This document shows, piece after piece, positions 5,512 to 13,174 of a DNA stretch of 33,160 nucleotides. Below the pieces are notes generated by a model, which had not been told where the DNA came from, made no database searches, and saw only the letters and a program-made list of their open reading frames with translations. The position numbers and the translations under genes are program-made. Position 1 is the stretch's first letter. The number at the start of each line of letters is the position of its first letter. The stretch is from Promethearchaeati archaeon (GTDB taxonomy: Archaea > Asgardarchaeota > Njordarchaeia > Njordarchaeales > Njordarchaeaceae), in contig JALWRR010000216.1 of NCBI GenBank assembly GCA_026993975.1, positions 1 to 33,160 of the forward strand, read 5' to 3'.

Positions 5512-7899
5512 TTAAGCTTGGTTAATTTCTCTAACTCTGCTAATGTTTCTGAAATCTTTTTCTATTTCAATTATTGTTTTAAAAATCGGTTTATATTTTA
5601 GCTCTTGCTGATGAGATATCACTATAATTTGATCAAATTCCCTATTATTCTTTAGATTCCGTAGAGCCTCAGCCACTGTCAATCTTAATTCTTCGTCGAG
5701 AGGACCAAACCCTTCATCAATAATCAGGAACCGTGGTCTTTTATCCTGAGCATAGACTTGCGCTAATAATTTCCCGATAGCCAGTCTAATCGCAAAGCCT
5801 ATTAACGTCTGTTCACCGCCACTAAATGTCTCTATCTTTCTCTCGAACCCACTTGAATATGATTTTAGTTCTATACTCTGCTGACTCCCACGAGTCTTCT
5901 TGAAATGGAATCTTATTTCGATATCTTGGTGGAATACTCGTGATAAATAATCGTTCGCGTATCGCTCTATTATCCTAAGATACTCGTCTAATAATCGAGT
6001 AGGTAGTGCTCCCGTTGCAAATATCTGTGATTCGAGTATTGTGTAAGCGTTTAGATCAATCTCTAATTTCTCTTTTTCTTTAAGTAGATCTCTTAGATTT
6101 CTCTCTTTTCTCTTGATTTCTTCAAGTTTATCTAGTTTATCCTTTAATTTTTGTTCGTTTTCGCTAATCTCTCTAATTAACTTCTCTTTCTTAGCTCTTA
6201 GCTTATTTAGTTTTGATTCTGCTAGATTCAAATCGGATTTCAATTTTTGATATCTTTGAACTAATTTATCTTTACCTAAAAGCTCTTCCTCATATGCACG
6301 GAGATCACTACTAATCTTAATCAACTTCTTTTTTAGATCGTCATACTTAATGAACTCACTATAGATATCCCGTAACTCAGTAATAATCTTCTCTAATTGA
6401 TTAATATTATCAACACGCATAGCGTTCATGATCGCATTCAGTTCGTTCTCTTGATTCTTTATTTTCTCTATGATTTCGTTACGATTCTCTCTTAATTGCT
6501 TGTATTCAGAATCTAAATCCTCTTCACCTAATTTACGCTGAATAATATTTATCTTAGTTTCTATTTCCTTCAACTTATCATTAAACTTTTTAAGCTCCTC
6601 AGCTTCTCTTTCTAGTTCCTGTTTGATTACAATGTTTTTATTGATCTCAGTATCTATCTTCTCTAGCTCTTTTAATAGCTCTAGCCTCCTTTTTTCTTTA
6701 GTTTCTTTAGTTAACTTGGCACCGCATACTGGGCAAAAAGCTTCAGCTGATTCTAATGCACCTAAGTGCTTCTGAATCTCACTCTTCTTAGCTTGCAGTA
6801 CGCTAATCAATTTGTCGATATCCCGTAATTCTTTATTCTTCTTCTCTAATAAATCTGCTTTCTTCACATAGAACTCTTTTTCTCTCTTTAATTGTTCTAG
6901 TTCATCTCTTTCACACAACTTGTCTTCTACTATACTTATATCTCTCTCTACTCGCTCTAGCTCTAATCTAAGTAAGTTATAGCTATGGATTCTATCCATA
7001 ATTCTGTTTATGTTCAAGAGGATCTCTTCACCATACATCTTTAATGCTTGTTCCACATTCCGTATCTGCTCTTGAATGTGCTTGCTTTCGCTTAAAGCTT
7101 TACGATAATGCTTCTCAAGCTCTTCTAGCCTTCCTAGCTCTGCACGTAAGTTCTCTAATTCTCGGTTTTTGGAATTAATACTTGATTGAATTTCTTTAAT
7201 ATCATTTTCTACGCTTTCTAATGATTTTTTCAGTCTGGGTAATTCTACATTACGGATCCGATCGATTTCTTCCATGATCTTGTTTTTCTTGCTTATATCT
7301 TCTTTGATCATGTTAATTTTTTCCTGCATTATTCTCAATTTATTCTCGATTAGTTTTCTTTTTTCTTTTGATGCTTCCCTAAGTGCTTCGAGATTTATTT
7401 TCAATACATCTACTAACATATTTCTCCTTTCGCTTGGAGATGCTCTGAGGAACTTGTATACATCACCTTGTCTAACCATCGCCGAATTAACTAGTATATC
7501 GAAGGTTAATCCAGTTAATTCTTTTATCTTGGTATCTACGGCCCTAATACTAGTGGTGATAAGTCTAGGAACTCCATTAGTAACCTCTACTAACTTAGCT
7601 TGAGACCCTGACCCCTCGCTAAAAACTCGCTCCACTCTATACGTTTTCCCGCCTATTTCAAATTCTAGAAATATTTTACCTATTTTTTTACCTCTCATGA
7701 CAAGTATCTTACCATATTCTCTCTCCTTTCTTCCATAAGCACTACCAAATAAGGCTGCTGTTATTGCATCAATGAATAATGTTGTTTTTCCAGCTCCAGT
7801 CTTGCCAGTGACGAAAACTGGGTAGTCTAGATCCTCAAAATCTATTTCTTGATTAAGGTAAGTAGCTATGTTCTCTATTCTCAATCTCTTTAGTTTCAA
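5512..7899 (-). CDS. rad50: DNA double-strand break repair ATPase Rad50
   Basis: Walker A VTGKTGAGKTTLFIDAITAALFG; zinc hook CPVCGAKL; ABC signature FSGGEQTLIGFAIRLAIGKLL; Walker B RFLIIDEGFGPLDEE; long coiled coil. TTG start overlaps the mre11 TGA (TTGA). Confidence 0.97.
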   Translation of the reverse strand: MKLKRLRIENIATYLNQEIDFEDLDYPVFVTGKTGAGKTTLFIDAITAALFGSAYGRKEREYGKILVMRGKKIGKIFLEFEIGGKTYRVERVFSEGSGSQAKLVEVTNGVPRLITTSIRAVDTKIKELTGLTFDILVNSAMVRQGDVYKFLRASPSERRNMLVDVLKINLEALREASKEKRKLIENKLRIMQEKINMIKEDISKKNKIMEEIDRIRNVELPRLKKSLESVENDIKEIQSSINSKNRELENLRAELGRLEELEKHYRKALSESKHIQEQIRNVEQALKMYGEEILLNINRIMDRIHSYNLLRLELERVERDISIVEDKLCERDELEQLKREKEFYVKKADLLEKKNKELRDIDKLISVLQAKKSEIQKHLGALESAEAFCPVCGAKLTKETKEKRRLELLKELEKIDTEINKNIVIKQELEREAEELKKFNDKLKEIETKINIIQRKLGEEDLDSEYKQLRENRNEIIEKIKNQENELNAIMNAMRVDNINQLEKIITELRDIYSEFIKYDDLKKKLIKISSDLRAYEEELLGKDKLVQRYQKLKSDLNLAESKLNKLRAKKEKLIREISENEQKLKDKLDKLEEIKRKERNLRDLLKEKEKLEIDLNAYTILESQIFATGALPTRLLDEYLRIIERYANDYLSRVFHQDIEIRFHFKKTRGSQQSIELKSYSSGFERKIETFSGGEQTLIGFAIRLAIGKLLAQVYAQDKRPRFLIIDEGFGPLDEELRLTVAEALRNLKNNREFDQIIVISHQQELKYKPIFKTIIEIEKDFRNISRVREINQA

Positions 7900-9098
7900 T
7901 ATAACCCGACCTCATCCATCAATGAGATAGCCAGTTCCATAACCCTCTTCTTTAAAACTGGCTCCTTTATGTTCATCGAGGCGATATATTCGAGTATGAT
8001 GTCTCTCAATGATTTTATTTTAACGGATTCAAGTGAATTAACTCTCACCGGCTTCGGATACTCTTTGTGAATCATGAATCCCAGTATTTTCCTATTGTTT
8101 AGTAAGTAACTGCGTATATCATCGATGTATCTCTCGAGAACTCTCCATGTTGCTTCATCAATTTTCATAAATATTCTAAGTAGGGATCCTGGAGGGATTC
8201 TCATTGATTCAAGGAGTTTTATTATGAGATCTCTTGGTTTCTTGTTGTTAATGAGATCTATCTTATTCGTAACTATCATGTCCCTGCACTTTAACTGTAT
8301 TCTCTCTACCATTATATCGTTGGATAACTCAATATAGAGAAAGCTCTTTTCCTCGTCTCGCTCCGAGAAATCTATTCTCTCTATAGAGCCAGCATAGTAC
8401 ACGTTTTCCTTTATTTTTTGCGGTGTATGCACATGCCCCAAAGCGACATAATCAAACTCTCTATAGAGAATATCATCTAAACTCAGCGCGGGATCATTTA
8501 AGTATATTCCGTGAATATCCTTTATTTTGGCTCCAGATAGAGTTAAATGCCCCACCAGAATCTTAAAGTCCACGTCATCTGGCGTATTATCTTTTAGCTT
8601 ATTGAGAAGCCTTCTATAGAAATTACTGTAAGTGATGCCTAATCCCTTAATCACTCTTGGATCTATGTATGGTACTGGTATTATCGCGACCTTCTTACCA
8701 TTAAGATTAATTACGAGGGGTTTATCTGGAATACTTTGTATGAAGTAGAAATTAGGTAATTTAGCTTTCATTAAAGCTAGCAGGGGATTAGTTGCTCCAG
8801 CAATTTTTGGCTTATCATGATTACCAGCGATGATGACTGTTTTTATTCCATTATTTACCACTCTACCAATCTGCTCTGAAATATATATTAGGTCTCTATT
8901 TGCTGGATCAGATCTATGAAAAACATCACCGCTAATCACTAACAAATCGACTTTTCTTGAGATAGCTTCATCAAACACTTTCTTAACATTTCTGTAGAAA
9001 TCTTCTCTTCTCGCGTCCTCCACGTTGTTACCGATAAAATTCCTGAATGATACTCCTAAATGAAAGTCTGATGCATGAATTATCTTGAGATTCGTCAT
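7896..9098 (-). CDS. mre11: DNA double-strand break repair nuclease Mre11
   Basis: Calcineurin-like phosphoesterase motifs HASDFHLG, VISGDVFHRSDPANRD, IIAGNHDKP, LVGHLTLSG, YVALGHVHTPQ. Confidence 0.97.
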   Translation of the reverse strand: MTNLKIIHASDFHLGVSFRNFIGNNVEDARREDFYRNVKKVFDEAISRKVDLLVISGDVFHRSDPANRDLIYISEQIGRVVNNGIKTVIIAGNHDKPKIAGATNPLLALMKAKLPNFYFIQSIPDKPLVINLNGKKVAIIPVPYIDPRVIKGLGITYSNFYRRLLNKLKDNTPDDVDFKILVGHLTLSGAKIKDIHGIYLNDPALSLDDILYREFDYVALGHVHTPQKIKENVYYAGSIERIDFSERDEEKSFLYIELSNDIMVERIQLKCRDMIVTNKIDLINNKKPRDLIIKLLESMRIPPGSLLRIFMKIDEATWRVLERYIDDIRSYLLNNRKILGFMIHKEYPKPVRVNSLESVKIKSLRDIILEYIASMNIKEPVLKKRVMELAISLMDEVGLY

Positions 9099-9116: not shown

Positions 9117-10844
9117 TTAGAGCAAGCCCTCCTCCCTCAATGCTTCTACTTCCCTATCTATGCTAGATATAATCTCATTGACTTTGTTCTTAAAAAATGA
9201 AACTGTTTTGGAATAATCTCTTATTTTAATCACAACTGGAAATTTAACGGCTTGACCATAAATAAATACTTCTCTGGTTCTAAGTAATGGAATTATTTTA
9301 CTAAATAATTCTGCTCGTGGAGCACCGATTAGAGCTGTAGCTATATCCCTCTTATCTGTTAAAGATAGAACAAAATTCGTCCATAACATGCTGACCACAT
9401 CTGAATCCAATTCGCTTGGTCTCTGATCAATTACACATAAGATAACTCCCTTCTTCCGCATTTCCCTAGCAATTACGCCAAAAGGTGAGATTCTATAGGT
9501 TTCTTTTCCAAGGAAATTATGAGCCTCCTCTAGGAAAATAACGATCTTTGTTTCCAGCTCCTTCCCCTCTAGAGTCCTCCCCACTATTTTTTCTCTGATT
9601 TTTCTCGCAATCAAATTCGCTATCAGCATGTATAATGGCATCTCTTTCTCGAACTTACCCAAACTAATTATTATATGATTGCCCTCAGAACTCATTAAAT
9701 TATTAACAATATCCTCTATTACGTCTTTACCGAAAGTTACTGGGTAGTCTAATAACCTAGCTAATTTAGCTACTTGCGATTTATATGCGTGTTCTGCTCC
9801 AGTACCATGTTTCGCTCTAATCCTTTTATATATTCTTTCAAAAAGTGTATTGGAATCAGTGATTCCTTGTTCTGCTAACACGTTTAAGATTTTTTCTCCC
9901 TCTAAGCTCTCTGATAGAAGTTTGAAAGTCTTCTCAAACGGTATAATACCAATGATCCAGTAAGCTCTATTACCTATCACTTCGCTTATCGTTGCCTTAA
10001 ATTCTCGTAAGTATTGAATAAATGTGCTGGATACGCCGAATATCGGGGCGATTAGCTCGATATCGCCTACTGTTAATTTCGTTAGATCTATCTTGAGTAA
10101 ATCTAAGCCCCGCTTCCCCGAGAGCTCTTTATCTGGAGTATATCTCTTCACCCAATTCCTGAATACTTTTCCGACTCCATCCTCGATAGGGTTGCCTAGA
10201 TTATCCTTTAACTCGAGAGAGTATTCACTATGCATATCAAATATCAATAGTTTTATTCTTTGATCCTCTTTATTTAATAAGTCATAGAGGATCATGTAAC
10301 CCGCTATAATGTTACCTAAAAACGTTTTTCCAGAACCAGATTTCCCAAATATCCCAAAACTCAGATTTATAAGATTCTTTATGCTTATTGGTATTTCAAG
10401 CTTCGAGACCCCAGAGGTCTTTGGAACCCCTATATTCCAGGTATCTCTCTTATTCTCTGCACCAAAAAAGAACTTCACTTCATTTTCACTCAGTTCGCGA
10501 ACAATTGAAGAGAAATTCGGCATCGTATCGGATATATAGGCACTCTCACCATCTGTCTGAGCTAGCAGTGCTGCCTCGAGCCATTGGGCCCATAACACCC
10601 CGCTTACTTCTCTAGCTAGAAGATTTTTTATTTCTGGTGATATATCTCTGCTGCTGATAAACTGGGTTATTGATTGACTCGCTGTTAAACCAGAATTAGT
10701 TATGAGGCCTAGATATAGATATTTCTTGCCTTCTATGATTATTAATGATCCTACCGGGTAATCCTCAATAACTGTTTCTGGATAAAGTAATATCCTCACT
10801 CCCTCATCAATACTACCACTGATTATCTTTCCAATTTTCATCAA
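9117..10844 (-). CDS. herA: DNA double-strand break repair helicase/translocase HerA
   Basis: N-terminal HAS barrel (IGKIISGSIDEGVRILLYPE...YPVGSLIII), Walker A GIFGKSGSGKTFLGN, Walker B VIFLEEAHNF, VIDQRPSELDSDVVSMLWTNFVLSLTDKRD. ATG at 10841 preferred (GGTGA SD). Confidence 0.96.
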   Translation of the reverse strand: MMKIGKIISGSIDEGVRILLYPETVIEDYPVGSLIIIEGKKYLYLGLITNSGLTASQSITQFISSRDISPEIKNLLAREVSGVLWAQWLEAALLAQTDGESAYISDTMPNFSSIVRELSENEVKFFFGAENKRDTWNIGVPKTSGVSKLEIPISIKNLINLSFGIFGKSGSGKTFLGNIIAGYMILYDLLNKEDQRIKLLIFDMHSEYSLELKDNLGNPIEDGVGKVFRNWVKRYTPDKELSGKRGLDLLKIDLTKLTVGDIELIAPIFGVSSTFIQYLREFKATISEVIGNRAYWIIGIIPFEKTFKLLSESLEGEKILNVLAEQGITDSNTLFERIYKRIRAKHGTGAEHAYKSQVAKLARLLDYPVTFGKDVIEDIVNNLMSSEGNHIIISLGKFEKEMPLYMLIANLIARKIREKIVGRTLEGKELETKIVIFLEEAHNFLGKETYRISPFGVIAREMRKKGVILCVIDQRPSELDSDVVSMLWTNFVLSLTDKRDIATALIGAPRAELFSKIIPLLRTREVFIYGQAVKFPVVIKIRDYSKTVSFFKNKVNEIISSIDREVEALREEGLL

Positions 10845-10848
10845 TTTT

Positions 10849-11475
10849 TCACCAACCTAGTACATCACTTAATTGTGTTAATACATCGCCGATTATTTCT
10901 ATCCTATACTTCCTTACTGCTTTTACTATGGAATCAATTATTCTCTCCTTCTCGCTTGATCTCTTTAGGAAGAAATCTCTATACCTATACAGGAAATCTC
11001 TAAATACAAATATGTCTCCTCCACTATGAAAGAAGTATCCTAGGAAACTAAAATCCCAGTCTCCACTTGGTTTAAAAAACGCTTCTAATAAATCATTGTT
11101 CAGTAAGTAAACTAGATCATGGAGTCTTGGGGAGCTTGATCTATAGTGCTTTATTTCTCCTTTTTGATCAATATGACTCGTATATATTATTGATGAAACA
11201 AATAAATGATAGAGATCTAGATCTGGATACGCTCGATTTATTTCATCCCTTGACATTCTCATAGGTGTAAATGTTGGGTATTTCGATGAGTGAGCTAGCT
11301 TAACGATGATTCCGATAGGCTTTATATTCACTGAGTTAATAACTAGTAATGAACCATAGCTAATTTCACTGAAGTATTCAGGGTAAATATAGATGTTTAT
11401 TATTTCGGACTCTATTCCAGCTACTTCACCTATGGCTTTTTCAACATCGTTTAGATAAATTATCCAATCCCTCAT
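10849..11475 (-). CDS. HerA N-terminal-like (HAS-barrel) protein lacking an ATPase domain
   Basis: Reading by eye, VEKAIGEVAGIESEIINIYIYPEYFSEISYGSLLVIN...PIGIIVKLAHSS parallels HerA IGKIISGSIDEGVRILLYPETVIEDYPVGSLIIIE...LYLGLITNSG. SSSPRLHDLVYLLNNDLLEAFF parallels HerA TMPNFSSIVRELSENEVKFFF. No Walker A or B. ATGA overlap with nurA; its stop lies in the herA SD. Confidence 0.75.
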   Translation of the reverse strand: MRDWIIYLNDVEKAIGEVAGIESEIINIYIYPEYFSEISYGSLLVINSVNIKPIGIIVKLAHSSKYPTFTPMRMSRDEINRAYPDLDLYHLFVSSIIYTSHIDQKGEIKHYRSSSPRLHDLVYLLNNDLLEAFFKPSGDWDFSFLGYFFHSGGDIFVFRDFLYRYRDFFLKRSSEKERIIDSIVKAVRKYRIEIIGDVLTQLSDVLGW

Positions 11476-12563
11476 GATACGGGTCGCCTCTTAGATAATT
11501 CCTTCCTGGACAAAACATATTCTATCCCAGGTTTCCCTAAATATTTAGCGATAAGATGCTCTATTATCTCCCTATCCTCCTTCTTTATAACAGCTAACTC
11601 ATGGGCTCGCTCCATCGCTATGGGGAAGCCGTTTCCAAGAATTATTTGGGATATTATAGCTCCGTGGACTAGATTTATCATGGATTCAAATTCTCGTGGG
11701 AACTCAACTCTCACAATACTTCCATTAACCCTGATGTAGAAGGTTAATAATTCTGCGTTTTCTCCTGCTAATGGCCTTGAGTAAACCTTGAATAAAGTGG
11801 ATCTAGCATATTTATTTTTGAGATACTTGCTGAAGAATGATGCATCAGTTATACCAAGTGAAGAATCTAGGTTTTTCCCCTTGTAGATGCTTATTCCCCT
11901 TAATAAGTCTCGGCTTCTAGTATAGAATACTGCTACTGGAACAATATCGTTATCTACACAAGCATTAATGTTACTTAATACCCGCTCCACCATCTCTTTC
12001 CTCTTATTAAATGCCCAAGATAATGTATAGGCACAATTAAATGACTCGTCAAAGAGAATAATTCTGTGTTTACCCCTCAACTTGTTAATTAACTCTCTAA
12101 TAACCTCATTCTCATATTTCTTAATTAGGATCTGAAAATCAATACTATCGCCAATATCCATCGCCCCGAAAACCCTGATGATGTTTCCGTAATCTCCTGA
12201 CTTATAGTTCTGAAACCAAGCCGCTGTGGTGATTATCCCTATATTAGCCATTAAATGCGGTCCAACAATATAAAAGCTTGAGTCAAATGAACCAATAGCG
12301 ATATCATTACCCTCAAGAAACTCTCTCGCTTCCCTTGCATTACTTATTTTTGGCTTTAATGGATATTCCCTAGGAACCTCTATAGGTAGTATGAATGAGT
12401 CCTTGGTGAATTTTCTTATCTCTAAGTCTAATGGTAGTTCCTCATAGTAATGAAAGATCTCTGTGAACTTTTTTGAGTTATTCACGTTAAGCAAATAGTT
12501 CTGGAGAATCTCCTTTAATTTATCTCCTATCAACTTTATCTTATCGACTTGATAAGTTTTCAT
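11472..12563 (-). CDS. nurA: DNA double-strand break repair nuclease NurA
   Basis: NurA motif IAIGSFDSSFYIVGPHLMANIGIITTAAW; later IILFDESFNCAY; C-terminal GFPIAMERAHELAVIKKEDREIIEHLI; located in the herA-mre11-rad50 operon. Confidence 0.92.
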   Translation of the reverse strand: MKTYQVDKIKLIGDKLKEILQNYLLNVNNSKKFTEIFHYYEELPLDLEIRKFTKDSFILPIEVPREYPLKPKISNAREAREFLEGNDIAIGSFDSSFYIVGPHLMANIGIITTAAWFQNYKSGDYGNIIRVFGAMDIGDSIDFQILIKKYENEVIRELINKLRGKHRIILFDESFNCAYTLSWAFNKRKEMVERVLSNINACVDNDIVPVAVFYTRSRDLLRGISIYKGKNLDSSLGITDASFFSKYLKNKYARSTLFKVYSRPLAGENAELLTFYIRVNGSIVRVEFPREFESMINLVHGAIISQIILGNGFPIAMERAHELAVIKKEDREIIEHLIAKYLGKPGIEYVLSRKELSKRRPVS

Positions 12564-12610: not shown

Positions 12611-13174
12611 CTATTTATAAAACGTCTTGAGAAGCTCCAGTGCAAAATGCGCATCATCCTTGCTAGGGAACCTACTCTGTATTAATGATATCAATTTCTT
12701 CTCATCGATCTTCCCCTGTTTATACTGCTCATAATAATCCTTAGCAATATCTAGAGGCATTAAAATATCACTAATCCTAACAGCAAGACGCCTAATTGGG
12801 TCTCTAGACCTAGATACAAGAGTCTCCTCTATGATACGCTCTAAGTGATCCAGAGGCGGGCTAATAAGGTTTTTATCCTCTATAACGAAAATTAGTCTTT
12901 TTCCAGAATATTGCTTCCAGCTCTTAAGATACTCTTCTACAGTTATGATCTCGAAATTAGCTAGTTTTATATCTGATGTTGGGGAGATACGTAGATCAAA
13001 ATTACTTTTAATATCCTCCAGTAATATGGAGAGCAATTCTTTATCATCATCATTTGGTACTACAATTACTATGTCTCCCCGTTCAACTATCAGAGATATT
13101 ATAGCGTAAGCAACTCCTCTATTAGTTAACCTCTTGGTTAAGTCAATGAACTCTCTCAAAAGCACCTCACCCAT
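12611..13174 (-). CDS. Uncharacterised 187-aa archaeal protein upstream of the nurA-herA operon
   Basis: Complete ORF with an upstream GGTG-type SD (GGGTGAGGTGCT...). No family recognised. Confidence 0.75.
   Translation of the reverse strand: MGEVLLREFIDLTKRLTNRGVAYAIISLIVERGDIVIVVPNDDDKELLSILLEDIKSNFDLRISPTSDIKLANFEIITVEEYLKSWKQYSGKRLIFVIEDKNLISPPLDHLERIIEETLVSRSRDPIRRLAVRISDILMPLDIAKDYYEQYKQGKIDEKKLISLIQSRFPSKDDAHFALELLKTFYK

Follow-up and report, generated by a model that had tools for sequence, protein, structure and literature searches.

A motorless HerA-related protein encoded beside or between nurA and herA in two or more archaeal phyla

Results

Gene content of the locus

The stretch of DNA analysed here (33,160 nucleotides; hereafter, the window) comes from a metagenome-assembled genome (MAG) whose nearest named relatives are Candidatus Njordarchaeota MAGs of the kingdom Promethearchaeati (Asgard). 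Because of this placement, the Desulfurococcales setting in which a preliminary description had viewed the locus is wrong, and the host is a Njordarchaeota MAG. Five genes lie on the minus strand in the order nurA-X-herA-mre11-rad50: nurA (11472-12563, 363 aa; Pfam NurA, 35.8 bits), a gene that we call X (10849-11475, 208 aa; an ATG-start ORF with homology to the HerA N-domain), herA (9117-10844, 575 aa, starting at TTG 10844 or ATG 10841; Pfam DUF87, 62.2 bits), mre11 (7896-9098, 400 aa; Pfam Metallophos, 58.9 bits), and rad50 (5512-7899, 795 aa; an ORF with phmmer homology to Rad50 ORFs of syntenic loci). Upstream of nurA, a 187-aa ORF without a clear family match (12611-13174, minus strand) is kept at the same place in another genome (G005; L036 2214-2780; phmmer E 3e-104).

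Gene X is tightly packed between its neighbours. Its coordinates, start codon, and stop codon agree with the earlier account of a 208-aa ORF between nurA and herA, and its start overlaps the end of nurA in an ATGA (11472-11475, minus strand; the nurA TGA occupies 11472-11474). As had also been read from the sequence, the X stop codon lies within the putative ribosome-binding signal of herA: its TGA (10849-10851) is part of a Shine-Dalgarno-like GGTGA (10849-10853, minus strand) that stands 4 nt upstream of the herA TTG, with the alternative ATG one codon further on. Translation of X is probably coupled to that of both nurA and herA.

Relationship of X to the N-terminal domain of HerA

HerA is an archaeal DNA translocase that consists of a HAS domain, a RecA-like ATPase, and a helical bundle (e.g. 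PDB 4D2I). A profile of nine X members aligned in register with the profile of window-type HerA, beginning at the HerA N-terminus and running to roughly residue 140 (P 1.8e-4), with a score of 38.1 for the HerA N-domain compared to a maximum of 25.1 among 200 column-shuffled controls and 12.3 for the ATPase half. When a 21-member X profile was compared to the combined HerA N-domain using hhalign, the match reached 97% probability (P 8.6e-11) over 136 columns, in which X residues 11-146 (11038-11445, minus strand) are colinear with HerA residues of about 3-148 and the alignment stops just short of Walker A. Additionally, a plain X HMM matched the N-termini of adjoining HerAs (E 1e-6 to 2e-5), and window X alone gave colinear matches to four HerA models of PADLOC (residues 9-134 of X with 8-133 of HerA; best E 7e-4). 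In a search of its whole genome, one of these models (214 positions) retrieved five HerA-type ATPases and X. The parallels previously noted by eye between the two proteins (YPE..GSLL/YPE..GSLI and PRLHDLVYLLNNDLLEAFF/PNFSSIVRELSENEVKFFF) occupy matching columns when the two profiles are aligned. By sequence comparison, X is confirmed as a genuine homolog of the HerA N-terminal HAS domain, with which it has a common ancestor.

This relationship emerges from alignments, which were required for detection. Searching the genome contigs with the single X protein returned nothing, and single-sequence scans of window X against Pfam and NCBIfam gave no match. Several members of the X family, window X not among them, match PF09378 at E 7e-4 to 0.05, with a best score of 20.1 bits and every member under the curated cut-off of 25.2 bits; this model is insensitive here, because the HerA of the window also misses it. 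X was not found in a scan of viral contigs, HerA itself was the sole defence model to match, and no family in Pfam, NCBIfam, or PADLOC describes X as such.

The HAS fold was founded on HerA and on the N-terminal barrel of subunit A of the A-type ATP synthase, and many or most of the weak extra matches of the X profile were to this barrel. Positions 6-49 of the X profile aligned with it at P 1.2e-7, a value that is inflated because the subunit A loci were chosen by their match. In A/V-type subunit A the alignment with X is confined to the first part of the barrel, and the two have no common genomic setting.

Unlike HerA, X has no RecA-like ATPase with Walker A and B. None of the 21 family members contains a Walker A motif, and the proteins stop at 161-219 aa; where HerA carries its ATPase, X has a helical tail of about 60 residues (residues 147-208; 10852-11037, minus strand; AlphaFold2 helices). 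The preliminary description was therefore right on the nature of the protein, as HAS homology, the helical tail at the place of the HerA Walker A, and the missing motif all accord with an ATPase-less HerA paralog in a nurA-herA-mre11-rad50 operon. The adjoining HerA is intact, retaining both Walker A (GKSGSGKT) and, by alignment, its own HAS domain, which rules out X as a split-off piece of HerA. A fragment of NurA is likewise ruled out, as NurA is complete and the X profile matched neither the NurA nor the Mre11 profile.

Several elements are common to the X family, including an IG-x-V motif and a barrel glycine (G41). An R-x-E-I-x4-YPD motif (residues 76-85; 11221-11250, minus strand) has P84 in 95% of members and D85 in 71%, and lines up with the helical insertion in the HerA HAS domain. 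It is followed by a barrel-exit motif, P-x-h-x-D-x-V (PRLHDLV in window X, residues 116-122; 11110-11130, minus strand; P116 in 100% and an acidic residue at 120 in 90%), and by the signature F-[FH]-x3-G-x5-[FY] (residues 133-144; 11044-11079, minus strand; F133 in 81%, G138 in 90%, and an aromatic residue at 144 in 100%), which sits directly ahead of the point where HerA enters its ATPase. AlphaFold2 models, built from five sequences with two choices of query, had mean pLDDT values of 53 and 50, with the barrel below 50 and only the helical tail confident (block means of about 70-95 from residue 131). These low-confidence models place a helix at residues 75-82 between barrel strands 4 and 5, and one of them shows six strands; Foldseek searches with these poor models returned no meaningful matches. 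Finally, comparison between relatives shows that X is under purifying selection (pN 0.24-0.30 versus pS 0.80-0.86).

Distribution of X in the Asgard phylum

Profile searches found X clearly in 9 of 232 genomes of the phylum. HerA of the window type (E 1e-60 or better) was present in exactly those nine, a co-occurrence with some circularity, since X-linked HerAs had supplied the HerA profile. X lies immediately upstream of herA at all nine loci (in some, the gene is cut by the contig end). The order nurA-X-herA recurs in other Asgard families, often with mre11-rad50, and one genome (G009) has an X-herA pair apart from nurA.

For comparison, twelve X-less loci of the same phylum with the next-closest HerAs have nurA adjoining herA with nothing like X between them, and mre11-rad50 follows wherever the contig permits. 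The ORFs upstream of X-less herA had NurA as their sole or best Pfam match in 10 of 10 scanned, five of them over the cut-off, and as a profile they matched window-type NurA. As HerA retains its HAS domain next to X and these twelve operons have nurA and herA directly adjoining, X is best regarded as an extra subunit rather than as part of a split HerA.

In the window genome itself (contigs C80, C195, C127, and C112), seven HerA/DUF87 ATPases score above the cut-off and there are four NurA genes; each of the three other NurA genes adjoins a HerA, and none of these three pairs includes X. A second genome, placed in the same genus (G003), has the same five-gene set (L035 6072-12909), with proteins only about 30% identical to those of the window, reflecting either replacement of the whole operon or a misbinned contig.

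X in a second archaeal phylum

At E 0.001, no X was found outside its own phylum among 397 relatives searched. Among 397 sampled genomes from another archaeal phylum, X is present at 13 loci and encodes proteins of 161-181 aa. At nine of these loci herA lies directly downstream of X: six have the order mre11-rad50-nurA-X-herA (G404, G539, G725, G671, G431, and G703), and in three X adjoins herA without a neighbouring nurA (G411, G428, and G781). The remainder comprise nurA-X without an adjoining herA (G463), nurA-X at contig ends (G599 and G693), and a lone X (G469). Weak matches outside the operon setting (G570, G530, and G651) were dismissed as chance. Within one family of this phylum (f36), X occurs with nurA but no adjoining herA, or alone (L125 6596-7282, L121 205-738, and L123 6037-6720), and in another member (G431, L124) the operon is complete, with the order mre11-rad50-nurA-X-herA.

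These loci refute a restriction of X to Njordarchaeota. The family is old and spans at least two archaeal phyla, a breadth that the preliminary description missed. Since nurA-X-herA is found in both phyla, this core is an old one, while its placement relative to mre11-rad50 varies (before or after). Genetic linkage of X to herA and nurA holds across loci: X accompanies herA where nurA is not adjoining (G009, G411, G428, and G781) and nurA where herA is not (G463).

Discussion

Work on HerA-NurA, mostly in Sulfolobus and Thermococcus, has treated it as a two-protein machine of 6:2 composition. For T. kodakarensis, a 6:2 complex with C2 symmetry has been described, in which the HAS alpha-1 helices, together with the loops before them, contact the NurA dimer in three ways (PMC12977600). 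The complex cuts up both strands of dsDNA and may target foreign DNA, and according to this 2026 study the isolated two-protein HerA-NurA does not act as a clean end-resection enzyme (PMC12977600). In Deinococcus, too, NurA is docked by the HAS domains (PMC9960219). Among the bacterial systems SIR2-HerA, DUF4297-HerA, and NurA-HerA, docking of a nuclease partner by the HAS ring has been shown for NurA-HerA, and the portions of these two sources considered here include no motorless HAS subunit in their descriptions of the three systems (PMC12977600, PMC9960219). In our literature search, no paper dealt with a third gene lying between nurA and herA; the founding herA and nurA papers, which lay outside this search (Iyer 2004; Constantinesco 2002/2004; Rzechorzek 2014), may contain an earlier mention.

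X belongs to the HerA HAS lineage, lacks the motor, and is tied to NurA-HerA. The presence of a third gene wedged between nurA and herA in two phyla suggests that a regulatory or structural part of the complex has been missing, and the DNA-end-processing machine of X-bearing archaea probably has a third part that we have not found described. We favour, with a probability of roughly 0.55, the reading that X is a conserved non-catalytic third subunit of NurA-HerA that binds at the HAS crown or at the NurA interface. X would retain the barrel, as well as the helical insertion through which HerA docks NurA, with a short helical tail standing where HerA has its ATPase, and could bind the surface used by HerA HAS domains at the top of the HerA ring. 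There, where a six-fold HerA ring meets a two-fold NurA dimer, it might cap, space, or substitute HAS contacts between the two, and would thereby set NurA docking or nuclease access; the stoichiometry and the exact binding site are guesses. Of the earlier suggestion that X is an adaptor or modulator of HerA-NurA, the linkage to herA and nurA, the co-occurrence with a HerA subfamily in the phylum, and the loss of the motor stand as observed, and from these we infer the binding, position, and modulating effect. X is not essential to the basic machine, as many archaea with NurA-HerA have no detected X.

A more tentative extension of this third-subunit reading is that three-component HerA-NurA-X end-resection machines exist in at least two phyla, with motorless HAS subunits forming a mixed HAS crown that gates NurA. 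Such a crown would resolve the six-to-two symmetry mismatch, similar to the non-catalytic subunits of rotary ATPases. X could also alter how cleanly HerA-NurA resects in species that have it; T. kodakarensis is not known to carry X.

A possible, clearly less probable, alternative is that X is an assembly or loading factor that binds HerA protomers, or open or heptameric rings, by contacts between HAS domains, governs closure of the ring on DNA, and departs when NurA docks, acting as a chaperone or decoy. In the absence of NurA or ATP, Sulfolobus HerA forms mainly heptamers, and NurA binding turns it into a hexamer (PMC5715905), a transition at which a motorless HAS paralog could act, and X adjoins herA at most loci. 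However, archaea without X form HerA-NurA, and X stays by nurA in G463 where herA is not adjoining, which suggests more than a HerA-only role.

It is unlikely that X bridges HerA-NurA and Mre11-Rad50, despite the five-gene set being complete in the window and in eight other genomes (G003, G011, G404, G539, G725, G671, G431, and G703). X is found with herA and/or nurA without adjoining mre11-rad50 in G007, G009, G463, and G781, while X-less operons still have mre11-rad50. Coupling to Mre11-Rad50 was the weakest part of the first interpretation, and a specific coupling is unsupported because X keeps its link to herA or nurA where mre11-rad50 is not adjoining (G007, G009, and G463).

Less probable still is a role outside end processing, for example in destruction of foreign DNA by a HerA-NurA-X complex. 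The possible action of T. kodakarensis HerA-NurA on foreign DNA (PMC12977600) would fit such a role, as would an X-herA pair in G781 that lies downstream of a gene resembling a CRISPR RAMP protein by eye; the linkage is nevertheless mainly to mre11-rad50, and HerA is the only defence model that X matches. Lastly, the absence of single-sequence Pfam or NCBIfam matches for window X might suggest that X is a HerA copy in decay, or a small unrelated barrel, and plays no part in the complex, a reading largely refuted by purifying selection, by a family-specific signature kept in two phyla, and by clear homology to HerA.

Single-ORF Mre11-Rad50

A literature search for the phrase Mre11-Rad50 fusion found no paper. 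In five other Asgard genomes of the same phylum (G128, G095, G097, G144, and G143), Mre11 and Rad50 form a single ORF of about 1190-1217 aa directly after nurA-herA. The Mre11 profile matches at the start of this ORF and the full Rad50 profile from about residue 415. These ORFs lie at L092 1345-4908, L095 2560-6135, L097 2080-5682, L098 2722-6348, and L103 2800-6372 on the minus strand, and at L093 6743-10393 on the plus strand.
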